From Tribonema minus (taxonomy: Eukaryota; Sar; Xanthophyceae; Tribonematales; Tribonemataceae): 64,000 bases of DNA. Location: contig JAFCMP010000079.1 of NCBI GenBank assembly GCA_017506865.1, forward strand, positions 310,001 through 374,000. The letters are read 5' to 3'. The first letter of the stretch is position 1. The number at the start of each line of letters is the position of its first letter. Position numbers and translations under genes: made by a program. A model generated the notes under the pieces. It saw only the letters and a list, made by a program, of their open reading frames with translations, had not been told where the DNA came from and ran no database searches. Shown one piece after another: positions 6,201 through 61,283 of the stretch.

Positions 6201-8244
6201 CCGCTGTCAAGGGTTTCGACATTCAACAGCCTAGGATTAGAAAAAAGCACACTGCACTCGCCCATGAGGATGCTCCGGCCGCTGATGGTACCCATGGAAA
6301 ACACCTGACCATGCGCCGCTCGCTGCACACGCCTTGCGCCCCCCCCCCCGCACCAGGATCACAACTGGAGGCCAGACCAGCCGCAGGCGGAGAGCTACAT
6401 TGCTCAGCGCTACATCATGAACCCCTGCACCGTAGGCGGCAAGAAGTTCGACTTGAGGTTGTACGTCCTCGTCACCAGCTTCAGCCCGCTGGCGGTGTGG
6501 CTGTATGGTGCGGGGTTCGCGCGCTTCAGCGGCCAGCGCTACACGCAGGAGCGCGGCAGCATGGGCAACGTCTACGTCCACCTCACCAACGTCGCCATTC
6601 AGAAGAAGGTGCGCGCGCGTGCTTTTGGGATGTGCGGGGGTATATGCTTTGGAGTGTGTATATGGTGTAGTGTGTAAGTATGTGCAACGTCTACGTCCAC
6701 CTTACCAACGTCGCCATTCAGAAGAAGGTGCGGATGCTTGCTTTTGGGGTGTGTGGGGCGTATGCTGAGTATGTGATGTAGCGTGAGTATGCAGATACTG
6801 ACATACGCGTTGGCTCAGCTGAGGGCGCTCGCGCAGGCGCTCATGCAGCATGGGGCAACGCATGCACGCCTTTGTTGCGTTTGTGACACAGTGCAGTCAC
6901 GTGATCACGAGGTAGCGTACTTGTGTGCGCATTCAGCATGCGTCCGTCGCGCCAGTGTCACAAACCTAACCCTGTGTCACATATACCTAACCCTGGCGTC
7001 AACCCTCAACCCTTAACCTAACCGTGAGTGGAGCAATGGCATTGCCGCCACCGATTTGATGCGCGTCCTGCATGTAATTGGTGACACCCTGGAGGCTACG
7101 AATGCAACATGAGCTGTGCATTCGGGCAGCAGATGCAGCGATGTGTCGACCCGGCAGTCAGCCTCATGGTCATCACCATGCGGCATGGCTGCAGCGCACG
7201 AGCCATTTCCTGTTGCCCCCCTTCAGAGCCTCGTATACTTCAAGCACACTTTTGAAGCGCTTGAAGACTCACCGCAGCGCGTGCGCGTGTGCGCTGTCGC
7301 ACGGCACGCAGGCGGAGGGCTACGACCGCGGCGTCGGCTGCAAGCTCGCACTGCACGCGCTCAAGCTGCTGCTCACGGCGCGGCACGGCGCCGCCGCCGT
7401 TGACGAGCTCTTCCACGACATGGAGTGCCTCGTCGTGCGCGCGCTGCTGAGCGTGCAGGCGGCCATCGTGCAGGACCGCCACTGCTTCGAGCTGTATGGG
7501 CTGGATGTGGTGGTCGACGACGCGCTGAAGCCGTGGCTCATAGAGGCCAACGCGTCGCCGAGCCTGAGCGCGGAGCACGCGACGGACGCGGCGCTCAAGC
7601 GCCAGCTCGTCTCCGACGCGCTCGACGTCGTGGACATGGAGGTGCGCGCGCGCGCGCGCGTAGGTTGAGCGCTGCAGCGGCACTTATTATTGTCATCGGG
7701 CTGCAGTGCCATCCATCACGTCGAGTTGAGAATCGTGCGGGCACCCACAGCTGTTCTGAAGTGGTGTGGACCGATCCAACGTGGAGGCATGCGTATGGGC
7801 GGTGGTAGGAGGTGTATGTATACAACTGGCTCACAATCATTGGCAGTTCATCTTCAGAGCCGTGTGTCGCCATTGCTGTCACAATTCTGCTTTCATGACG
7901 GAGTGGATGCTGAGGGTGGAAGTTCTGGATCGATGGCAGGCATGGGTATCGCCACAGTCACATGACCACGTCTCCTGTTATGAACGCCTTGTCCCTTCAT
8001 GCAGAACTGGATATGAGGAGCAGCCATTGTGTTGCGCTGTGCATCACGTTCAGATAGTGCACGCAAGCTCACCGCGCTTTGGGCTGTATGTATACATGTG
8101 CAGGGCGCGAGAGACGGTACAGAATTGGAGGTGGGCGGATTTCGACTCATCTGGGACAGCAATGGCCCTGTGGAGCAGCCTGTGGCAGGCTCGTTCAGAA
8201 CATGGCTGGGCTCTCAGCATGTGGCAAAGGCTCATTCTCGATAA
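3293..8244 (+). CDS. TTLL9: tubulin polyglutamylase TTLL9 homologue
   Basis: Seven exons join in phase: 3293-3582, 3878-3938, 4624-4733, 5547-5703, 6357-6608, 7312-7641 and 8104-8244, giving 446 aa (human TTLL9 is of similar length). TTL-domain landmarks appear in order: [107 protein letters not shown], and a C-terminal [13 protein letters not shown] block typical of TTLL9. The ATP-grasp residues (K in IMKP, the R in KFDLR, the E/N in LIEANASPS) are present, so it looks active. The family adds glutamate chains to axonemal tubulin, which implies a flagellated life stage. The N-terminus is Gln-rich and its start is the least certain point. Introns 3 and 5 carry tandem duplications, and a truncated exon-5 tail copy follows exon 5. 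Confidence 0.9.
4293..4311 (+). other. poly-G run in TTLL9 intron 2
   Basis: About 19 consecutive G, preceded by other G-rich blocks from 4260. It is on the sense strand, whereas most other tracts in the introns of this window are poly-C on the sense strand. It could form a G-quadruplex. Confidence 0.7.
4841..5271 (+). repeat. tandem duplication, about 215-bp unit, in TTLL9 intron 3
   Basis: Two diverged copies, 4841-5055 and 5056-about 5271. Shared blocks include GGACGGATGC/GACGGATGC, GCGCTACATGCAGTGC and GCCGTTGCGAG. Neither copy has coding similarity to TTLL9. Confidence 0.8.
6565..6789 (+). repeat. truncated tail copy of TTLL9 exon 5 (119-bp tandem unit)
   Basis: The last 44 bases of exon 5 (GCAACGTCTACGTCCACC... 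encoding [14 protein letters not shown]), its donor and the first part of the intron (6565-6683) are repeated at 6684-about 6789. Exonic bases are nearly identical (one silent CTC/CTT change seen) while the intronic bases have drifted. The copy keeps a donor (aag|gtgcgg) but has no acceptor. Confidence 0.85.
6964..7024 (+). repeat. telomere-like CCTAACCC tract in TTLL9 intron 5
   Basis: Degenerate CCTAACCCT units (five or so) on the sense strand, about 290 bp before the 7311 acceptor. Confidence 0.7.
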
Positions 8245-18621: not shown

Positions 18622-20724
18622 CTATGTGTACTCGTGAGCGCTGCCGTCGGCAAGCGTCAGCTTCCCTTTGCCGAGCAATGAGATGGCATCTCCCGCCCAC
18701 TGGCCAATAAACTGCTCGCCGTTGCCAAATACGCATGTGCCCTGGCCTTGCCGCTTTCCCAACACAAATTCGCCTGCAGCGTACAGCAAGAAGTGGGCAC
18801 GGCGATGAGTGTAGAATTTCACAGCATGGGGGGGTTGGAATGCATTGGAACGTGTCAGAAGTGCTGCGTCGCGTCGCAGAATAAGTCAATCAGCGAAGTA
18901 AAAGGGTTCGATTGTGCGTTGTGATAGGGCAGTCGTCGGCGGTGTCATGTCACATGCATAATGGGTACAACATACACATACAGTGCTCAGGCGCACTCCC
19001 TTCACGCTGATATCAATGACGATCGATGTCTTCAAACGCCAGCGCAACAGAGCCCACTTCCATCACTCTCGTCAGCAATTTGTATCCGTCGCTACGCCCA
19101 TGCGCCAAGACTCAGCCCCTAACCCTGACCCTAACCCGCGCTCCGCTGCACACGCCTGTGAAGACGCCGCCGTTCGCATACTTGTACGTCCCGCGGCCGT
19201 GCGGCACGACCATGCCCGCCGCATCAAGCCCCATGGTGCCCACATAGTCGTCGCTGTCGTATCAAGACTCAGCTGCTGACTCTAACCCTACCCCTACCCC
19301 TAACCCGCGCTCCGCCCCACTCGCCTGTGAACACGTCGCCGTTCGCATACTTGTACGTCCCGCGGCCGTGCGGCACGACAAGACCCCCGGCATCGAGCCC
19401 CACCGTCCCCACATAGTCGTCGCCATTCGCGTAGCGCACGCGCCACTCCCCCCCCTCCACCGGCAACCCCCACTTCCACTCCCCCTCCAGAACGTCACCA
19501 GTGGCGGTGGTGAGCATGCCGAGTCCGTGCTGCTTGGCGGCGGCGAATTCGCCTTCGTAGCGGCCGCCGTCGGGCAGGACGAGGCGCCCCTCCCCCCACC
19601 ACTCCCCCTCGCGCCACTGAGAAGGGAAGAGAGCCGGGGCGGGGAGGGGGGGGAGGGGGGGGGGAGGGGGGGGTCAACTCAAGACGGCGCCGTTGCAACG
19701 GCGATTGTGCACCCGGCGTGGGCAAGTGGCACCGATGCACGCCAAGAAGCACTGGGGAGTAAGAGGTGGATGGAGGTGAAAGGCCACATCAGCAGCTTGG
19801 TATGCTTCAAAGTATGATGTGATCACTAACATGTCAGGCAACCATGCACGGACCAAGAAAGCGACACTGCACCAAGTGACATACTGGCAGCAGTCCAGCG
19901 CAGTCCAGCGGTGTACTCCACAGTCCAGCAGTGTACTCCATGATGCCTACGCGTACATACCTGCCCCGAGTACACGCGCCCGTCGCCGTAGTTGCACTGC
20001 CCCAGCCCGTGCTGCTTGCCCCCTCGCCACTCTCCAACGTAAACAAACCCATGCGGCGGCGGCGCCGCGCTGCCAGCGGAGCCATGACGCCGCCGCTGCT
20101 CGCTGCCACCTTCCGCCGCAGCGCCCGGGTCCAGTGACAGCTGCAGCTGCGACGATAGCGCGTTGGCGCTCGCGCGGCGCGCGCCGACAAAGGTATAGCG
20201 TCCTGCGCCGTGGCGCACGCCTCGGACGTACTCGCCCTCGTACAGGTTGCCGTCGGCGTCGCAGTGCTTGCCTGCGAGGCGCGCGCGGGCGCGCGTGCGG
20301 CGGCTGGATGAGCGATGCGCGAGCGCGCACAAAGGAAGAGGCGGGAAGCGGAAGTCCTGTGCAGTTTGAGCATGCGGCCTTGTGACTGGTGCTCTGCTGG
20401 TGTGATCATGGCAGTACTCGCCTGCAGTGCGCGTGCACGCGGGTGTCGGTGTACCGTCAACATGCGCAGAGCCGAGGCACGCTATGTGTGCAGCCGCGGC
20501 GCGAGTTGGCGCTCAGCAAGTGTGATCATTGCATCACACGAGCAGCATCATTTATGTACAGTACCAACACACCTGGCCCATTGCGCATACATGTTCTCAC
20601 AGCGCATACCACATACTTCAAAGTGGGTGTGTAGGTATATGTGTGTGTGTATGCGGTTGCGCCGGCGCTGCGCTGCTTGCCAGCAATTCGCAAGTGACGT
20701 TACGCAGCGGCAGCAGGCAGCAGC

Positions 20725-32705: not shown

Positions 32706-35700
32706 CTACTCGTCGGCGTCGCCGCCGCCGGGCCCCTTGTTGAGCAGCAGCTCCTTGAACGTCGCGGCGCGCGTCTTGACGAGGTTGTCTGCGCCGTAGT
32801 TCACATACACCTTATCCACGGCGTACGACGCGCCGTCGCCGGGGCGCAGCGCGCCCGCGACGGCGGCGCGGTCGCTGATGACGTACGCGAATACGCTGTA
32901 GCGGCCGTCCAGCGCCTCCGCGCTAGCGTCCATAAAGACGCCCTCGGCGTCGAGGTTCGCGTCCGTGAGCCAGAAGAACTGGCTCGAGCCGCCGTTGCCG
33001 TCGCCGGGCGGGTGGAACGCGGCGACGGCGCCGGGGATGCGGAAGGTCTGCACTGCGGGCGCCTTGGTGAAGACGCGCGTGTTGCGCGCCGCGCCGTAGA
33101 ACGGGACGTTGCCGCTCTTGGGGTCCGCGCGCAGGACCTCCAGGGGCAGGCGCCGCACGTTGCTGCGCGTGCGGGCAGGCGCAAAGGGGGGGTGGGGGGG
33201 TGGGGGGGGTTAGGGGGGACGCAGCGTGCGTCAAGAGGTTCCCGTGCGATGGGGGGGGGGGGGGGGAGGGCAGTTACATCACACTGACGCTCAGACCACA
33301 CTGTGCAAGGGGGTGGCGCTGCTGCTCTGGAGGGGGTCCTTGCGCAGGACCTGAATACATACCGTACGCTTTGCTGATCATGAGCATGATGCAATTGCGA
33401 AACACTAGAAGAACGTAGAGATGAGACAGAGCGATTGAAGCTGTCCTTGGTTTTACAACCCCTGTGCTTGTGCATCACACCAACGCCGTCCCACAGCGTG
33501 CCAATTCCACGGACTTCTGGCCTTGCTCCTTTGGGTGCACCTTGCTCTGCTGCTACTTCGCGCACAGCTTCAGGCAAGGCGCACCTCCAGCGGCTCATTC
33601 CTCCACACTACCACATACCCTTGAAGTCGCCATGAGCTTTACCATGTGATCGGGTCCACAGGGGCTCGTTTCCTCAAACTGCCACAGTACTTCAAGTCGC
33701 CATGCAAATCATAACCCAGAGAACTTGAAATTGTCATGAGCCTCACCCCGTGATCGGATCCACGAACCCCTCCTGGTACGTCCCGCCGATGACGACCTGC
33801 AGCGTGGACTTGGTCATTCAAACTGCCACAGTACTTCAAGTTGGCACGCAACTCGCGCTGGAGTTGGTCCTTCAAACTGCCACAGTACTTCAAGTGACAC
33901 AAAACTCACCCCGTGATCGGGTCCACGAACCCCTCGCGGTACGTCCCGCCGATGGCGACCTGCAGCGTGGAGTTGGTCCCCGCATCCTCCGTCGCGTTGA
34001 AGCTCACGGGCAGGCCGTTGTAGAAGCCGCGCAAACACAGGTCGATGAAGTTGCCCGCCGTGACGGGGGCGCTGTAACCGTCCACCACCAGCGAGACGTT
34101 GCCCATGATGGTCGACTGCAGCGGCGCCGCCAGGAGGGAGGCGTTGGCGGGGGCGGAGGCGGGGCCGTCTGCGGGAGCGTCGCGCCGTATGGTCATGTCG
34201 ACCGTGGCGCGGCCGAGGAGGCGCGGTATGGAGTCGTACTGCTCGTCCATGGTGACCTGGGAAGGGGGGGCGACGCGGGGGCAGCGAGTGTGAGCACCCC
34301 ACCAAAGTTCAAATGTGAAGTGCAGCGAGGGGGTTGAGCGGGGTGGAGTTGAGTTGTCTTGCTGACGGAGCGAGGTGTGGTATTTTTTTGTGGGCGGTTG
34401 AGATGTGAGCGCACTCGTCCAAACTCACAATGCGAAGTGCACGTGTAAGGATCAAGAGCGCGATGGAGTGTCTTGCGACCGACTGAGCAAGACGCGTTTG
34501 TTGCGCGCGACAGTGATGGCGCACACTGCACTGCGTCATGTCCAGTGCTGGTGGGCCCGGCAGGCGCAGCAGGGACATGCGCTTCTTGTCCATGGCCACT
34601 GAAGTTCACTACTTCAAGACATACAACCCCCACCTTGTCATGAGCAGTGGCTGGCGTGTGACACCAGTGGGCGCAGTTCAGGTTGAGGCTGTATGTCTGA
34701 TGCAGCCCCAATGACAGATGCGTACACAAAGTACCAATGCCGGCAGGCAAATTGAAGGCACTGGTAAGTCAATTTGTCAGGCAACACAAGTGACCGCTGA
34801 TCCTCAAGATGGTTTCCGTGTTCTGCGGCGGTGTGTACACACTGAGAAAGTATTAGGTATGCTGTGACTTGTGTGCGCGTAGAATTGGGTCACATAGATC
34901 ATCCACCCCTCACCCCGAGAAGTCGCCTGGTATTGGCAAGGTGAGCTGCACGTGATGAGTGACATGATCAAGGTTGACGTGTAGAAACCAAACCATCCAT
35001 CAGACCCCGCGACTGACATCACGTGGTGGGATCACCTGCCAGCTCACGTCACAGTATCAGCATCGACGCCGGTCATCGCGCAGCACCTCAGGCAGCGACT
35101 ACACACATGCCACCACTGCATGCTCATGCAGACTCCAGGAACTAACCCTAACCCCAACCCTCATACTAACCCTAAGGGGCGCGCGGCGCCCCCCCCCCTA
35201 CCAGAACGCAGACTCCAGACTCCACACAGAAAAGGGGGTGCAGGGTTAGGGTCAGGGGGTAAGCGCGCCGACCCACCTGGAATGGAAACTTGGGCACCAG
35301 CAGCTCCCCCATGTAGCTCAGGTGCAGCAGCGCTCCGGACTGGGCGTCGAGCACTGCGCTGACGTTGCGCGCCTCCGCGGCGTGCGTGAGCGCCATGAGC
35401 TGGCGCCGCGTCTCATCCAGCTCCTCCTCGCCCCTCTCCGCGCGGCGGATCTGCGCGCGGGGCGGCGGACGCGCGAGCGAGTCGGGGGCGTTGAAGTTGA
35501 AGTTGACAGCTTGACCAGGCTCGCGGTGCGGCAAGTCTCTGGCAAGCACTGCGATTTGGCTGTGCATCTTTGCTTGCCGTTGCGTGTAATTGAGAGCTTA
35601 GGGTTTAGCGGTGCAGGTGCTGGTTGAAGTCGAGCTGCGGTGGCGCGTGCGCCAGTTTTGCTGTGAGTGATGCGCTCACGTTGACTTGACGTGTGGAGCT

Positions 35701-48535: not shown

Positions 48536-51500
48536 ATGCGCTTGGTGGCGGTCAGCGTCGCATGTGCGGCGGTGATGGCGCATGCCTTCGTTCCGTCCCT
48601 GCCGGCGCGGACGCACACCCTTGCAGCTTCCCGGACGCTGTCTAGCACCAGATATGCCTCGGCGTCCTCCAGGTACACAATTTGACTCGCCACGCATGTT
48701 TGCTGCTGCCTGACACAGTCCACTGCTGCTGCTGTAACCGGCGTGCTGCATCAGTTCTGTAGGCTTGCTCATGGTGCCATCGTCGTTGCGCTTGCCAACC
48801 GCCTGTGTGTCCAGCAAACAGCGAGCTGCAGCTCGTCCAACTGCACAACAGATTTCCCAAGCCTGAAGACGCTTCGATGCGCCGTATGCTGTCGCTGACA
48901 TTGCACCTTTTCTGCAGAATGGATACGTCCATGAAGGTCATCAATGTTGGCGTCATCGGCGCTGGCCGCATCGGCATCGTACACCTGGAAGCCCTCGCCA
49001 GCTGCCCAGATGCCAAGCCCATCATCATATCCAACCCTACGGTGTCCAAAGCCAAGGATGCCGCGGCCAAGTTCAACGTTCCGGAGTTCACCAGCAACGC
49101 AGACGACGTGATCAACCATCCCAACGTTGACGCTGTGTGGATCTGCTCTCCCAGCCAGTACCACGCTGATCAGATCAAGGTGAATCAACAGCGATTCCGT
49201 CGCGAAATAGCAGGACACGTTAATTTTGCTTGCATATGTGCTGGCAGGCAGACGCGCTCTCACTCTGCAAGGGCACCGCTGTGCCAAATCACTGGCATCA
49301 CTGGGCGCATGCGTACATGTGCATGTCTGCGAAGATGTGCATGTAGCTGCCAGGGCTCACACTTGTGTCGTGTGGTGCAATTTGTACTATGAACTATGTA
49401 AGGCACGTGAATACATGAACCACACCACTATATATGCGCCGCAAGGACCTTGGGGCGACACCATAGCAAGCCAGGCAGCCCAGGCAGCCATACTTCAAAT
49501 GTGAAGTAGAAGACCTGAACTCCCAATAATTGAAGTTGATGAAGACTTCAGCAATCGCATCCTCGTCTCCTGCGACAGGCATGCGCCAAGGCGGGAAAGC
49601 ACGTGTTCTGCGAGAAGCCCATCGCGGCGGACATGGCGGAACTATTGAGGCGATCAACCATACTTCAAACATGAAGTAGAAAGACCTGCATCCACATATA
49701 TTGACGTTGAGGAAGCCTTCATGAATTTCCCTCGCCGCCTGCGACAGGCGTGCGCCAAGGCGGGAAAGCACGTGTTCTGCGAGAAGCCCATCGCGACGGA
49801 CATGGCGGAGACGATAGAGGCCATCAACCATACTTCAAACATGAAGTAGAAAAGACCTGAACTCCACTATATACTGACGTTGAGGAAGATGTCATCAATA
49901 CCCCTCGCGTCACATCCTCGCCCCCTGCGACAGGCGTGCGCCAAGGCGGGAAAGCACGTGTTCTGCGAGAAGCCCATCGCGACGGACATGGCGGAGACTA
50001 TTGAGGCGATCAACGCGTGCGCGGCGGCGAACGTCAAGCTCATGACGGCGCTGCAGCGGCGCTTCGACCCCAACTTTGCGCGCGTCAAGAAGGCCATTGA
50101 GGACGGCCAGGTGGGGGAGCTGGTGCAGGTCAAGCTGTGCTCCAGGGACCCTTCGCCGCCGCCCTTCCAGTGAGTTTGCAACAAATTTGCCATGTGTGTA
50201 TTTTATATGTTCAGCAGCACTTGCAGTTGCTCAGCGCCGTCCTCCGTATGTTCCCTCACGAAGCTGCAGAGTCAATGTATGATATACACGACACTGTGAT
50301 GGCGCGATGCCTACGGCACTTCCGTCTGCGCGTAGCAGCGGCAGCAGCAGCTGCAGCAGCTGCAACGCGCCGTAGAGACGTTGCGAGCAGCGCACACCAC
50401 CACCTTGAGGGCCGGCAGCATCTGTCCAGACGCGCCACCAGCTGTGCCCGCACGCGTTATTTGCGTGTTTCACTGGCAGCGCGGCCTTGCATTATTTGCG
50501 TGTGGTGAAGGGCGCGCAGGACGCAAGGCCCTGCTGCTGGTGATGCGCGCCGCCCGCTGCACTGGCGAGTTGCGGTTGCTTGTGCGCTGTGCAATGCACT
50601 GGGTGTTCAGCACGCATGTCCCCTTGCAGAGCGAGCGCAGAGCGACACCATCTACACGCGGGGGGAATGGGGATGGTGTAGACAATGGCACGCGTCTGGG
50701 CTGGTCCTGCAACATGGTACCTACATGCACGTTGTTCACTGTGGTTTGAGGTCTCGATGCCCATGACTCACTTGAACAACTTCGCCTCACGTCAGCTCTG
50801 ACTGGAAGCGCTCAAGCTCGCGGGCCGCTTTGTCGACTGGCAACAGTTCCACCCAAGTTCAACTTCATGTGGGTATACTCACGTACCCTAGGCGAAGTCT
50901 CAGATCAGTGGTGGGCTGTTGCGTGATGCGTGTTGATCCGCGCGGCACCGTGGATAAAGTGATGCAGCAGTGCTCATTCACTGTTCTGCCGTCGTGATTG
51001 AGGTCGTGCTGCCATGGCTCACCTGAATCTGAGCGCACACTTGAAACCTGGCCCTCAATTCATGCTCTCGAGCATGGGCCTGTCAGAGTCAGCGCGCCAT
51101 AGCTTTTGCGCGCAAACTGCTCCAAGTGCATCACTGAACTGATGGAAACGAGTCAAAAGCTCGTAGAGCCCTAGGTGACAGGGTGTGTTGAGCCACAGGT
51201 GCGTTCCGTTAATAAGCGTGGTCGCCGCAGCTGCAGCCATCGGCCACGAGTCAAACAGTGCCACCATATCCACAGTAGTCAAAAGTCTTCTCTGTGCAAC
51301 TGATGTTTGAATTCTTGCGCGGTAACATTGAGGGCGGCAGGCAGCTGTGGACGCGCTGTGTTGATGTTGAAGTTGAACTTGTGTATGTGCGCTTTTATGT
51401 TCCTACAGATACGTCAAGGGGGGCGGCGGCACCTTCAAGGACATGGCGGTGCACGACCTGGACATTCGCGGTTCCTCATGTATGTTGATATTGAAGTTGA

Positions 51501-54500
51501 ACTTGCATTTGCGCACTTTTATCTTCTTGCAGGTACGTCAAGGGAGGCGGCGGCATCTTCAAGGACATGGCGGTGCACGACCTGGACATGTCGCGCTTCC
51601 TCATGGGCAGCGAGCCAAAGGTGAGCACTGCCGCGCATCATTCAGCAACACGTGAGGGAGGGTTGGGCATGTGGATTGAAGAGCAGTGAGTTGAGATCAC
51701 AGCATAGTCGTCGCGCATCGGTCCTCGTCGGCAGGGAGCCGCAGGGGGGCGGCAGGGAGCCGAAGGGGGGCGGTGCTGCATGCTGTTAAAGGGCGGCGTT
51801 GAGTGGCGTTGAATTCATGCTCCTTTTCAAAGAGATGGTTTTTTATTTGCAGTTAACAGACTTCTAAGAAGTATCCCAACTGCTAACACCTGCCAACATC
51901 TGGAGACATACATGCCCATCATGGGCAGCGAGCCAAAGGTGAGCGCTGCTGCGCATCATGCAGCAATACGTGGCTGCGAAACCATGCTCTTGAGGGAGGG
52001 TTTGGAATCTGGATTGAAGAGCAGTGAGCTGAGATCACGGCATCGTCGTCGCACATCGATCCCCATCGGCAGTGAGCCAAAGGGGAGCAGTGAGCCAAAG
52101 GGAAGCAGTGCTGTGAGGAATCTACTTCTTGTCGAGGGACAGACCAAAGCTTTTAGAGGTTGAACTTTGAAGTGTTGAAGTTCACTTCTGATTTCAGTAG
52201 CTTGTGTACACTTTTCAGTGACATGACACGTTGAGCGCGCACGCCTGTCCCACTGCTTTGGGTCAAGCATGGGCACGGCACCGTCGCGAGTCAGAGTTGC
52301 CGCCCCCCGTTCATATCTCCGTTTCGCAAGTTCAAGCACATTGACAAGAGCACTTATGTGGGCGCCAACCACACTCCCAATCGGCCGAACACCAAAGTCA
52401 ACCCACAGTTCCTGTCTCGTCTCCGGAACTGAGCAGTAACACTCAGCGACGTCTGGTCCCCTGCCTTTGGGGATAGTCTGACAGCTTCAACAGCATTACT
52501 ACCACTCACCCCCGCCCCCCCCCCCCCCCCCCAATCCCCCTCAAACGCACACGCACTGCAGCGCATCCTCGCCATCGGCTCGTGCCACATTGACAAGAGC
52601 ATCGAGGTGCTCCCCGGGGCGGAGGCATATGACACTGCGACCATCATTGTGGAGTACGAGAACGAGCGCACGGCCACCATCGACGTGTGCCGCCAGGCGC
52701 CCTATGGCTACGACCAGCGCGCGGAGGCGCTCGGCACCAAGGGCATGATACAGACGGACAACATGTACCCCAACACGGTGAGTGAGGGCGCGCGCGCGTG
52801 GCTGGGGGTATCTAGGTATACATACCTCCATAGAAGTACCTCTATACCTGCGTATGCACGTATGTGAATGCAGCTACCTGCCCCGTTGTCAAAGCGGATC
52901 CGCGTTTACACCTAGCGTGAAGCGCGGAGGCGTGTGTCAACCGGAAGTGTGAGGTGCTGGATGTGTCGGTCAGGGCGCTTCAAGGTGATGACAGCGATCA
53001 GCGAGCGAAGACGATGACTCAGAGTCAAGTTGCCGACTCATGAGTCATAGCGGCAGCGCGCCTCTACCTGAACAACTTCATGGGCAAAGCGTACATGCCG
53101 TACGACTTCTTCATGTTGCAAGTTGCAATGCCGCGGTTCGCCCTCAAGTTCAAACTTGTACTTCAAGTTCGCATGCGCCGCGCATACCCCCCCCCCCCCG
53201 CCCTTCTCACACACATCACCCAATTGCTGCAGCAGCGGCGACCACGGTTCTTGGTGGACGGCACTTGCGGCTAGCCATACCTTGTCACCTAGAGCTCTAC
53301 GAGCTTTTGATTCGTCTTCATGACCCCTGTCCACGCATCTCCCGCGGCAGGCGCGCCTCTACCTGGACAACTTCACGGGCAACGCGGACATGCCGTACGA
53401 CTTTGTCATGTCGCAAGTTGCAATGCGGCGCTTCGCCCTCAAGTTCAAACCTGTACTTCAAGTTACCATGCCCCCCCCCCCCCCCTGACTCACACACATC
53501 CACGCGTCTCGCACCCAGGCGCGCCTCTACCTGGACAACTTCACGGGCAACGCGGACCTGCCGTACGACTGCTTCAAGTTGCAATACCGCGCTTCGCCCT
53601 CAAGTTCAAACTTGTCCTTGAAGTTGCGATGCGCCGCGCATACCCCCCCCCCCCGCCTCACACACAAAACCCCCTTCACTCACACACATCCCCCCGTGCA
53701 CGCATCAGGCGCGCCTCTACCTGGACAACTTCACGGGCAACGCGGACATGCCTTACGACTTCTTCATGTCGCGCTACAAGGAGGCGTACGTCCAGGAGAC
53801 GCTCGCTTTCTGCAAGGCCCTCGTGCACGACCTCCCCTCCCCCTGCAGCGGCGAGGACGGCCTCATGGCCCTCATCATGTCGGTCGCGGCCGGCATGTCG
53901 GCGGAGCAGGGCCGCTGGGTCAGCTTTGACGAGATCCCGGAGGTGCAGGCGTGCACGGACGCGACGCACTGTGAGATCTACGACCCGATCGAGTTTGCGC
54001 TGGAGCCCGTGCACCAGTAAGTACCCGCTCTCCGCGTGTCTCCCCCCCCCCTGCGCCCTGATCTGCTGCGGTTGTTGTTGAAGTAGCAGTTGCTGGAGTG
54101 GCCGCCCGCGTGCCCCCCGCGCGCTGATGTGCCGTTGTTGAAGTAGCAGTTGTTGAAGTGGCGTGAGACGACCCCGATCGAGTTTGCGCTGGAGCCCGTG
54201 CGCCAGTAAGTGTTCGCTCCGCGTTCCCCCTCCCCCGCGCCCTGATCTGCTACAGTTGTTGAAGTGAGATGAGTGGTACTTGAGGTGTGAGCGCTGGCCT
54301 GCGAGGTGCGGGTGTTGGTTTTGGCGGCGCAGTGACGCCCAATGCGTCAGTCCCGTAGGTATCCGTCCGCCTACCTGCCTGCCCTGATCTGCGGCCTTGC
54401 AATTAGATGTTGGAAGTCGGACGAATGGTACTTCAGGTGTGAGCGCTGGCCCGCTAGATGTGGGTGTCGGCGGCGCGGTGACGCCCGATGCGCCACATCC

Positions 54501-54999
54501 TGGCAGCAAGATACTGGCGGAGTGAGCAGGCCCATAGTTGTTGAACGTGTGCGTTGACCGCTGGGCTGTGAAACTCACAAATGCGCGTCATTTACTGTGC
54601 TGTAATGCTCATCAGTTCTCGTCATTCCCCGCCCCTCACCCCCCCCCCCTTCCCCCCTTCGCTGCTCTCGCCTGCCGTGGTGTGCCGCAGCAACCCGCCC
54701 ACTCGCAAGCGCGACAAGGTGAGCGCGTGTCTCGTTAACAGCATTGCCTGTGTTGCTATGTTAAGATGCCATGCATCGGACGCCATTCATCAATATTAAA
54801 TCGCGGCTGTGGATCTCCTCAGGTCGTCCAGATCCTCGGCAACACCTGCGTTCGTACCACGTATGTCTATTGCAAATACAAGTGCGCCGCGCTTGTCAGT
54901 TCTCAATATCCATGTCGCTTCACGAATCCAATAGCCGGCTATTGCTGCTGTGGAAGATGCCATTTTCAAAATGCCATGCCTTTTTTTTGTTTTAGATGA
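48536..54999 (+). CDS. plastid-targeted inositol 2-dehydrogenase-like oxidoreductase (Gfo/Idh/MocA)
   Basis: Exons in phase: 48536-48672, 48918-49179, 49934-50169, 51533-51620, 52562-52777, 53709-54016, 54691-54718 (28 nt) and 54823-54999 (483 aa; the last two exons are less certain). Exon 1 encodes MRLVAVSVACAAVMAHAFVP, a signal peptide with an AHA|FVP plastid site, then a transit-like stretch (THTLAASRTLSSTRYASASS). The enzyme begins at exon 2: VINVGVIGAGRIGIVHLEAL (GxGxxG NAD loop), VFCEKPIATDM, FKDMAVHDLDMSRFLMG (catalytic Asp/His pair), TIDVCRQAPYGYDQRAEALG and LYLDNFTGNADMPYDFFM. This matches inositol 2-dehydrogenase, and I see no missing catalytic residue. Targeting an inositol dehydrogenase to the plastid is unusual. 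The introns carry truncated copies of exons 3, 4 and 6 (and perhaps 5) and two dispersed repeats in opposite orientation. Confidence 0.88.
49489..49998 (+). repeat. three tandem copies of intron tail plus head of exon 3 (170-bp unit)
   Basis: Units start at 49489, 49659 and 49829 with CATACTTCAAA. Each contains intron tail, acceptor (tgcgacag) and the first ~65 bases of exon 3 (GCGTGCGCCAAGGCGGGAAA...). The first two units break off at gaggc(g/c)atcaac and re-enter CATACTTC. Only the third continues into the full exon. The exonic part is far better conserved than the intronic part. Confidence 0.95.
51150..51280 (+). repeat. dispersed intronic repeat, copy 4 (forward)
   Basis: About 130 bp (AAACGAGTCAAAAGCTCGTA ... 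CACCATATCCACAGTAG), the closest partner of 38957-39085, in intron 3 of the oxidoreductase gene. Confidence 0.75.
51361..51600 (+). repeat. truncated head copy of oxidoreductase exon 4 (about 122-bp unit)
   Basis: Intron tail (TTGATGTTGAAGTTGAACTT), acceptor (tacag) and about 60 exon bases (TACGTCAAGGGGGGCGGCGG...) at 51361-51480 are repeated as the real exon at 51481-51600. The copy ends after GACCTGGACAT. Confidence 0.9.
51604..52110 (+). repeat. truncated tail copy of oxidoreductase exon 4
   Basis: The last 17 exon bases, donor and about 150 intron bases (ATGGGCAGCGAGCCAAAGGT..., 51604-51770) recur at 51921-52110. Shared intron blocks include GGATTGAAGAGCAGTGAG and ATCA(C)GGCAT. Confidence 0.9.
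53055..53765 (+). repeat. three truncated head copies before full oxidoreductase exon 6
   Basis: The head of exon 6 (GCGCGCCTCTACCTGGACAA...) appears at 53055, 53351, 53519 and, in full, at 53709. Each truncated copy holds about 60-65 exon bases in the same frame and all but the first keep a clear CAG acceptor. Each then drops into TTGCAAGTTGCAATG-like intron sequence with AAGTTCAAACTTGTACTTCA palindromic words and a poly-C tract. Spacing is 296, 168 and 190 bp, and the extra length of the first is a dispersed repeat. Confidence 0.95.
53222..53325 (-). repeat. dispersed intronic repeat, copy 5 (reverse)
   Basis: About 104 bp matching 1205-1322 in the same orientation. It sits between the first and second truncated exon-6 heads and accounts for their wider spacing. 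Confidence 0.75.
53980..54230 (+). repeat. truncated tail copy of oxidoreductase exon 6
   Basis: The last ~38 exon bases, donor and early intron (GACCCGATCGAGTTTGCGCT... through CACCAGTAAGT, 53980-54038) recur at 54169-54230 with CGCCAGTAAGTGTTCGCTCC. GTTGTTGAAGTAGCAGTTG words lie between the copies. Confidence 0.9.
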
Positions 55000-58288: not shown

Positions 58289-61283
58289 GCACATATATAA
58301 AGGTGAGCAGCCAGCTCTTTATTGCAAGCAGTGTCCCCTTCTCTTGATATACATATGCAATGTCCTCTTCACGAAGAACGTTGAGCTTCCGAGCTGGCTG
58401 GATGTTAAGCATGCGCACAAGTTGTATATCCCATCTTTTGGTTGCAATGCCATGTCCAGTTTTATATATTCGCAATAACTAATTCCGCTTCGGTGTGTGT
58501 AAATATGGTGGATTAAAGCTGCTGTACCAAAGAATTTACAAGTACTCCCAAGAAACCTGCATCAATTGTTTGCTGTGTATTTGTGCTCGCTGCACTGTAT
58601 GCAGCTCATGCTGACTATGTAGTTGTGTTGTGTGACTTTTAATACATTGACGAATAGTATGTGAGGTGATGTTGGTTTGTGTGATTTTAGAGTGAAGCCA
58701 TACCATTTGATTGGTGGTTTATCCAAGAAATGCAATGTATCTTACAGTGTGTTGTTTACTGATCTTTCTTGCGTTTCAGGTTATGATGCTGTGAGGCAAA
58801 AAGGAGCATATTCTGACGACTTCAGGCGGAGTTGAGCACTATTGCCACACACACTTCGTGCTGCAGATATATGAGTCTCTCAGCGACATCTGCATCCACC
58901 CGGCCCCTACCACCCTGTATACATCTTTATATAGCCATCACCTAGCTCACCTTCGAGGTGTGCTTACACATGGTGCTACATTCTTGCTGGAGGAAAAGCT
59001 GCCATCAATCGCTACTTAAATAATGACTCCATACATGACACACTTAAGGGGGTTGTGCTGAGTTTTATCGGTGTTTGCATATGTCTGCTGTTGCGTCAAA
59101 ACTTGTTGCAAATTCTTGATTTGTAACATTTGCATGTGCCCCCCCAGTTTTGTCGATACGATGCACCGCTATGTTTGCGACATGTGTTGTGCATATATTA
59201 AGTGTTACCTGTTCTCTTGCCTTTTGTGTCAAAGCAATATTGCAAGTGGGCTCCCATTGTTGAGTAAGAACAAGCAGCAGAGAGGCACTACATACCATAT
59301 GTATTTACAAATGTGTAATATGGGATGAGTATAAGGCATCTAGTATGGTAGAATGTGCGAAAGGCAAGAGTGGTAATATATTGGAATAGGTGACCTCATA
59401 TGGACAAATAGGTGTTTCTGCCAGGACACAAGGATTTTGTTTCTTTGCAAAGTAGAAAAAAAGTATATGAAGTGATTGTAGTGCGTGCAATGTGGACCAT
59501 AAAGTCAATTACATGTTGCAGTGTGAAGGTGGTATTGTATGTGTTGTATACTTGCAAACACACATGCTCCTGTGTAGGAGATATACATATCTTGACAGTT
59601 GTGAAGTAAAGATGATGCATTACAAACTTGTATCGATTGAGTGGTGTCTGCACTTGCCACAATGGAGCATGATGTGCAAACAGGTCTGCAATTTCTTTGG
59701 TGGAGTATAAGGCATCTAGTATGGTAGAATGTGGGAAAGGCAGAGTAGTAACATAAATTCGAATAGGTGTTTCTGACCCCATATGGACAAATAGGTGCTT
59801 CTGCCAGGACAGAAGGATTGTTTCTTTGCAAAGTATAACAAAGTATATTAAGTAATTGCAGAGCGTGTAATGTGAACCATAAAGTCAATTGTATGTTGCA
59901 CTGTGAAGGTGGGTGTATTGTATGTGTTGTATACTTGCAAACACACATACTCCTGTGTAGGAGATATACATATCTTGACAATTGTTAAGTAAAGATGATG
60001 CATTATGCACTTGTATCATTTGAGTGGTGTCTGCACTTACCACAATGGAGCATGTTGTGCAAACAGGTCTGCAATTTCTTTGGTGGTTAGTTATGCAGTT
60101 GCGCAAGGTGCCTGCTAGGTGGGAGTGGGGTGGGTGGGGTGTTACCCCACTGTTTGTGCATTTACTTTAATAGTTGCAGTCTCAAGCAGGGGCATTTGCC
60201 TTGCCACATCCTCAAGCACTTCTATGGATGTAAAGATGTAATAGCACGCTAAGAAACTGCAGTGTATCTCCATCATCATGTTTTCATCTGATTATGTAAC
60301 TGCCAACTAAGAAGCAGTGTATTGACATCATCATTTCGGAAGGAAAAACTGACATAAACAACATTGTTCAGCGCCCTTGGCATGTGCAGAACACTGTCAG
60401 AAAGTGACCGGCGCCAAGTGAGTGTGCACAAGCAGAAGTGATTACATCGCTGGTGTTGTGTGCAAGACAGAAAGGAAGTGTCAATAGCAGTGGCAGCAAT
60501 ATCAACACCACACAATCAGCAGAGCTTAGAAAGGTTGGCGGTAATGAATGTGGTGATGAATTGAGTTTTTCCACATCATATGGCTCCATCATGATCATCG
60601 ATACGCTCACTGTGCACACTGCATATCTGCAGCATGGTTGACTGAGCACTGTTGCAGCGTACACGACAAGCGCATATGTGCTGAGCGTTAGCAGCGGCAC
60701 CACTGCAACAGTGACGTGCCAATGTAACACCCATGGCCACAGCATCGCTACGTCGCAGCCTGTGTGTGGCTGCAGTATGAGCGCGCCACGCTAGGGAGGG
60801 CGCGGGCCGGGAACGGCAAGCTCAGCCATGCTGCACCGCCTTTGCCACACATTGCCTGTCCTGCGAGGTCGTAGGCAGCAGTGCACGTGACTGCGGCTCT
60901 GAATCCCAGTGTCCTTTGATGAAAAGCCTTGAAGGTGCTGCTACTGTTTAAGGTGGTTTTGGGGCAGCCATCTACTCCAATGTTGCCACCACTTTCTTCA
61001 TATCTCAGACAGTGTTGTGGCACGCTTCAACTCTGTGCTGAGGCGCCGTGCCAGCAGCATATCGAAAGGGGCCCGGCAGAACTGGGATGAAGCAGGACTG
61101 GAGACCACCGATCTGAGTAGTGTGCCCCCCCACCCTCCCCTTCCTCAGCGGCAATTCCGCCCGATTGCTGTGGCTTTCCTGCTGCCATGGCGAACGCCGT
61201 GTGCCGACATGCCCAAGAGAATGCTGTTACCACCGCATGAAAGCCGAGTGCACAATCATCGCACGCGCGCTCTCCCTCACTGC
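58289..61283. other. AT-richer gene-poor stretch
   Basis: About 3 kb, notably AT-richer than the rest of the window up to about 60.3 kb, between the CON-6 gene and the 3' end of the next minus-strand gene. It contains the tandem duplication at 59327-60086. I see no exon, tRNA or rRNA. ORFs of 60-160 codons in the repeats are low-complexity and lack family resemblance. Confidence 0.6.
59327..60086. repeat. tandem duplication, about 376-bp unit
   Basis: Copy 1 is 59327-59702 and copy 2 is 59703-about 60086. Both start GAGTATAAGGCATCTAGTAT and end GCAATTTCTTTGGTGG. They differ by scattered substitutions and a small duplication of an AATAGGTG(T/C)TTCTG block in copy 2. No coding frame is preserved. 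Confidence 0.95.

Follow-up and report, generated by a model that had tools for sequence, protein, structure and literature searches.

Truncated exon copies in the introns of a Tribonema minus oxidoreductase gene as probable by-products of short tandem duplications that recur in many genes

The introns of an oxidoreductase gene of Tribonema minus contain eight truncated copies of neighbouring exon ends. We consider it very probable that these copies are decaying by-products of short tandem duplications, which are common in many genes, and not a system specific to this one. The gene lies in the window, a stretch of 64,000 nucleotides of contig JAFCMP010000079.1, to which all positions refer (Table 1). 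An earlier note on this DNA had described the copies and had proposed selection, gene conversion or recent recurrent formation to explain why their exon parts are nearly identical although their intron parts have drifted.

The gene is encoded on the forward strand and is intron-rich; it was modelled as far as the start of exon 8, all modelled junctions are GT-AG and the reading frame runs through them. The presequence-like N terminus encoded by exon 1 may point to a host alga with a complex plastid. Its product matches PF01408 (3.1e-30), PF22725 (7e-28) and PF02894 (1.4e-23), corresponding to an N-terminal Rossmann domain and C-terminal Gfo/Idh/MocA domains. Over most of its length it aligns, collinearly, with the solved inositol 2-dehydrogenase-like structures 3ezy (9e-77) and 4hkt (9.7e-72). 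Judged from its sequence, the product appears to be a Gfo/Idh/MocA inositol-2-dehydrogenase-like enzyme, with putative activity on inositol. The exon model, the domains and the structure alignment all give an enzyme that is complete without any of the eight truncated copies.

Table 1. Exons of the oxidoreductase gene and duplicated segments in its introns (window positions).
Feature	Position	Strand	Description	Evidence
Exon 1	48536..48672	+	presequence-like N terminus	GT donor, frame
Exon 2	48918..49179	+	Rossmann fold	GT-AG, frame, PF01408
Exon 3, complete	49934..50169	+		GT-AG/frame model, collinearity with 3ezy and 4hkt
Exon 4, complete	51533..51620	+		GT-AG/frame model, collinearity with 3ezy and 4hkt
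Exon 5	52562..52777	+		GT-AG/frame model; tblastn with exon peptide
Exon 6, complete	53709..54016	+		GT-AG/frame model, collinearity with 3ezy and 4hkt
Exon 7	54691..54718	+		GT-AG, frame
Exon 8, start	54823..54860	+		frame model
Exon-3 head copy A	49488..49658	+	intron tail 49488-49578, exon head 49579-49658, 1-nt deletion	repeats, tblastn, alignment
Exon-3 head copy B	49659..49828	+	intron tail 49659-49747, exon head 49748-49828	repeats, tblastn, alignment
Exon-4 head copy	51358..51481	+	intron tail, exon head 51409-51481, 1-nt deletion	repeats, tblastn, alignment
Exon-4 tail copy	51919..52113	+	exon tail 51919-51938, intron head copy	repeats, self-BLAST, alignment
Exon-6 head copy 1	53056..53120	+	acceptor AG shifted 1 nt	repeats, tblastn, alignment
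Exon-6 head copy 2	53351..53415	+		repeats, tblastn, alignment
Exon-6 head copy 3	53519..53583	+		repeats, tblastn, alignment
Exon-6 tail copy	54173..54261	+	exon tail 54173-54205, intron head copy	repeats, self-BLAST, alignment
Intron-only near-tandem duplication	54254..54495	+	54254-54349 / 54405-54495, without exon part	self-BLAST

A find-repeats scan and self-BLAST recovered all eight copies claimed in the earlier note, in the numbers claimed: two heads of exon 3, a head and a tail of exon 4, and three heads and a tail of exon 6. Searches by tblastn with exon peptides recovered the six heads, missed the two short tails and found no copies of exon 5. TRF detected just the head arrays of exon 3 and exon 4. 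Each copy consists of an exon end and the adjoining intron DNA in one contiguous piece. As the note had described, all eight retain their splice dinucleotide, with a 1-nt shift in the first exon-6 head, and all eight lack the other end of the exon. Its further statement that the copies all keep the coding frame fails for two of the eight, exon-3 head A and the exon-4 head, owing to their deletions. With a head acceptor or a tail donor taken as the splice site, seven copies lead to a stop and the exon-4 head leads out of frame; none of the eight could be used productively. Repeat pairs within the gene are 77–96% identical over 64–363 bp, a similarity far beyond chance, and are spaced 124–653 bp apart.

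In tandem exon duplications and mutually exclusive exons, the copies are complete and carry both splice sites. Exon sequence is repeated next to its exon here as well, but in each case as a truncated piece. In all clear cases heads lie upstream of the exon and tails downstream, an arrangement that calls for no selection, since no other can result when a direct tandem duplication spans an exon edge. Most near repeats in the window are direct (23 direct and 3 inverted, n = 26). The copies are arranged head to tail, directly and at short distance, as in local tandem (internal gene) duplication, and the duplicated unit is likewise contiguous intron and exon DNA. Exon edges are not preferred in the oxidoreductase gene, as 5 of its 14 internal exon edges fall in duplicated DNA, about the same rate as for its intron bases (1,859 of 5,012; 37%).

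Internal tandem duplication in eukaryotic genes was reportedly described by Gao and Lynch in 2009, a study cited in PMC3443670 and PMC4974935, and short direct duplications within genes are common to that process and to the present case. Here, however, truncated exon ends stand in introns, singly or in arrays and in many genes, and the DNA gives no sign of a new exon or intron. In a reported case from potato, the duplicated unit also spans intron–exon structure, but the event there yielded a new intron and an insertion of exon sequence, whereas here the structure is unchanged as far as the DNA shows. Compared with its closest paralog (on contig C134), in which exons 2–6 were matched exon by exon, the gene has no extra exon or intron. 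The process is of a known kind, internal tandem duplication; within the limits of our literature search, in which coverage of subscription papers was thin, we found no description of genome-wide arrays of truncated exon ends or of such a density at the exon ends of one genome.

The earlier note had judged the clustering of copies in one gene to exceed what random slippage would give. A reading of this clustering as a sign of selection finds no support, because the pattern recurs in other genes and, in the oxidoreductase gene, exon edges are hit no more often than introns. The gene is not special in carrying such copies, as truncated exon ends of this kind recur in other genes of the genome (158.2 Mb, 554 contigs). 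With one BLAST setting, 15 near-tandem duplication clusters were detected in the window, four of them in the oxidoreductase gene, and 37 in 20 other stretches (197 kb), namely 33 in 16 stretches of fixed coordinates (160 kb) and 4 in four stretches chosen as paralogs. The duplicated fraction of the gene region (40%) was exceeded by only one of 68 blocks of 3.1–4.7 kb, a set that includes pieces of the window; the gene region is thus the second most duplicated among them. It is an upper-tail case, and was picked for that reason, but it is not alone. Genes differ widely in their duplication load: two paralogs (L008 and L009) contain no near-tandem duplications at all.

Among 22 loci with ABC-transporter exons (PF00005), some of which overlap in DNA, 8 have a partial copy adjoining the anchored exon. 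Inspection of the sequence revealed five further exon-tail copies at one of these loci (L027), three heads at another (L032) and two tails at a third (L045), and the arrays match their own exons. A Ras-type gene on C446 carries three heads, and one on C77 carries a head and three tails. In the profile listing for the chaperonins (PF00118), grouped by eye and with one lone weak match set aside, exon-end copies were seen in 4 of the 10 groups of gene size: C51 shows three heads, C135 shows heads at two of its exons, and C5 and C516 show a tail and a head, respectively. Exon-tail copies of a proteasome gene on C434 were likewise seen in a profile listing. Within the window, a tubulin-tyrosine-ligase gene, a cyclophilin-type gene and a MORN-like gene, so labelled from its sequence pattern and with no Pfam match, each have an exon-tail copy, and a paralog on C147 has a head copy of one exon. 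Inspection by eye of the listings for kinases, short-chain dehydrogenases and ubiquitin-conjugating enzymes, which reveals only long, well-kept copies, gave no clear case. A few Ras groups (C50, C1) and a ubiquitin-conjugating enzyme group (C57) showed ambiguous overlaps and were excluded from the counts. Kinase matches with equal scores occurred on several contigs, suggesting recent duplicates or uncollapsed haplotypes.

Tandem repeats are error-prone in assembly, and if those kinase matches are uncollapsed haplotypes, mis-joined or uncollapsed reads might also be suspected of producing the copies. A simple assembly duplication is nevertheless unlikely: between each copy in this gene and the real exon, 1–7 bases differ in the exon part, and more differ in the intron part. 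The same geometry is moreover found in many genes on different contigs, and overall we regard an assembly artefact as extremely unlikely.

Our preferred explanation is that short head-to-tail duplications arise in many genes of this genome. A duplication with its breakpoints in an exon and in the intron next to it would leave that exon whole and would add to the intron a truncated end of the exon, together with the splice site and some intron DNA. The order within an intron would be donor, donor copies, acceptor copies, acceptor; no acceptor is then followed by a donor, and so no false exon is defined. We infer that exon definition lets the copies persist: the spliceosome would recognise an exon as an acceptor with a donor after it, and truncated copies never produce that order. 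Duplications at exon edges would be tolerated in this way, and those inside coding sequence mostly not. The machinery may be duplication of a microhomology type, with which the 10 of 50 adjacent repeat pairs that adjoin directly or share up to 4 bp would fit.

A mobile or motif-guided element, similar to an introner and associated with the word TTGAAGT, could in principle also make such copies. Introners (PMC9860276) affect many introns of one genome, which is the likeness to the present case. The sequence TTGAAGTT is 24-fold over-represented, lies near several junctions in the Ras and ABC genes, and reaches a density of 2.5 per kb in duplicated DNA versus 0.77 outside. However, the word occurs in 27 of 85 duplication clusters against 25 expected, and at 10 of 50 junctions, where copy midpoints give 7.5 and random positions 3.3. 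With junction and cluster counts this close to expectation, TTGAAGT was dropped as a cause of duplication, and we ascribe its higher density in duplicated DNA to the multi-copy arrays. In contrast to introners, no single shared element was found, and each copy examined consists of local DNA from its own neighbouring exon. When the 481-base DNA of the exon-3 array was used as a query against the genome, only this gene and paralogous exons were among the matches listed. A guiding element is, in our view, very unlikely.

The better preservation of exon parts that had been noted in the oxidoreductase gene was confirmed, with differences at 24 of 482 exon sites and 30 of 222 intron sites. The exon/intron divergence ratio is 0.37 in this gene and 0.70 in the other genes. 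Pooled over 36 copies, taken from 18 exon edges already known to carry copies and aligned locally, which favours well-preserved copies, divergence was 8.5% in exon parts (184/2154) and 13.7% in intron parts (130/949), a ratio of 0.62. By our own estimate, a ratio of 0.5 to about 0.65 is expected if copies drift freely and exons keep a fraction of their changes, and the pooled value is near this prediction. After duplication, the copy would decay freely while the exon stays constrained, and exon parts would look better preserved than intron parts for this reason. The lower ratio of the oxidoreductase gene could reflect hypermutable C-tracts in its introns, conversion or small numbers.

That low ratio would also be expected if gene conversion between exon and copies kept the exon parts alike, and exon-3 head A shares a base with the real exon (GCG) where head B has another (GCC). 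Conversion tracts should, however, extend over the intron parts as well; no conversion is needed for the pooled ratio, and the order of duplication also explains the shared base. We consider gene conversion very unlikely as the cause.

The pooled differences between copies and exons fall on codon positions 1, 2 and 3 as 40, 35 and 109, which had suggested coding constraint on the copies. In the 10 arrays that hold at least two copies, changes could be assigned to a side, and the signal that remained after this split was weak. Changes assigned to the copies were distributed as 25, 27 and 44, and those assigned to the real exon as 3, 0 and 14, indicating that the copies change largely freely, also at positions 1 and 2. 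A slight excess of third-position changes persists among the copies (p = 0.012). We read it as synonymous changes of the real exon that are older than the later duplications; slight constraint or gene conversion is also possible.

Selection might instead maintain the truncated ends as decoy splice sites by which splicing is tuned or paced. This small excess points in that direction, as do the low exon divergence in the oxidoreductase gene and the retention of GT or AG in 32 of the 34 copies with an aligned site, where about 29 would be expected by our rough estimate. Free change at the first two codon positions speaks against it, as do the broken frame within the exon part of two of the eight copies, the lack of preference for exon edges and the presence of copies in unrelated genes. 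The closest paralog, furthermore, has no second match for any exon (tblastn with exon peptides, E ≤ 0.05). Taken together, decoy-site selection appears distinctly unlikely. In a related but broader scenario, hyperactive tandem duplication in this lineage builds introns from their own exon ends, and the cell puts the resulting arrays of strong donor or acceptor copies to use, perhaps letting them compete as splice sites and so regulate or pace splicing where exon definition is strict; this, too, we consider unlikely.

Many exons of this genome stand next to one to five near-identical copies of their splice sites, each embedded in as much as about 110 bp of matching exon sequence. The genome thereby offers a natural experiment on site choice by the spliceosome and a test of exon definition, its introns being full of strong, apparently unused sites. 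The sequence around a site does little to tell true sites from false ones, and the choice must depend on exon definition or on position. The copies also show one route of intron growth, and they call for caution with gene finders and long-read aligners, which may call them as exons.

The closest paralog also provides an indication of age. Its exons 2–6 match those of the gene one by one at 85–97% protein identity, and exon 1 matches weakly. Third positions differ by 41% between this paralog and the gene, but by 15% between copies and exons of all genes pooled, which suggests that the detected copies are probably younger than the split between the two. Recurrent formation, one of the earlier proposals, is supported by arrays of 2–5 copies in several genes and by two sister ABC genes, in which the first tail copy is common to both and the second copies differ; in these sisters, either copy formation continued or copies were lost.

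Exon-tail copies, that is, partial duplicates of the 3' end of an exon with its adjoining intron, downstream of the real exon, were found in two further genes of the window and probably in a third. For the latter, named MORN-like from its sequence pattern, a Pfam search of one fragment returned no match.

Exon-tail copies (one probable) in three further genes of the window
Gene	Feature	Region	Copy	Strand
Tubulin-tyrosine-ligase-like	exon-tail copy	6558-6763	6677-6763	+
Cyclophilin-type	exon-tail copy	33674-33978	33674-33815	-
MORN-like	probable exon-tail copy	19109-19423	19109-19254	-

Across the window and the sampled loci of the same genome (L007-L050), TTGAAGTT/AACTTCAA was the most over-represented non-simple 8-mer (24-fold). 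The word TTGAAGT was biased towards the sense strand in genes of known strand (82 vs 41; 24 loci) and peaked 0-50 nt downstream of donor-like sites, with 16 occurrences vs 3-12 in the remaining 50-nt bins. It may be an intronic splicing signal.

Introns 3 and 5 of the inositol-2-dehydrogenase-like gene share a 102-bp inverted repeat (51142-51243 vs 53220-53321; 79% identity), perhaps a dispersed repeat. A tandem duplication with a spacing of 376 bp and 89% identity (59327-60086) lies in a stretch of the window with lower G+C. Elsewhere in the genome, kinase matches scored equally or almost so across contigs C144/C223/C278 and C90/C179, which suggests recent duplicates or uncollapsed haplotypes.
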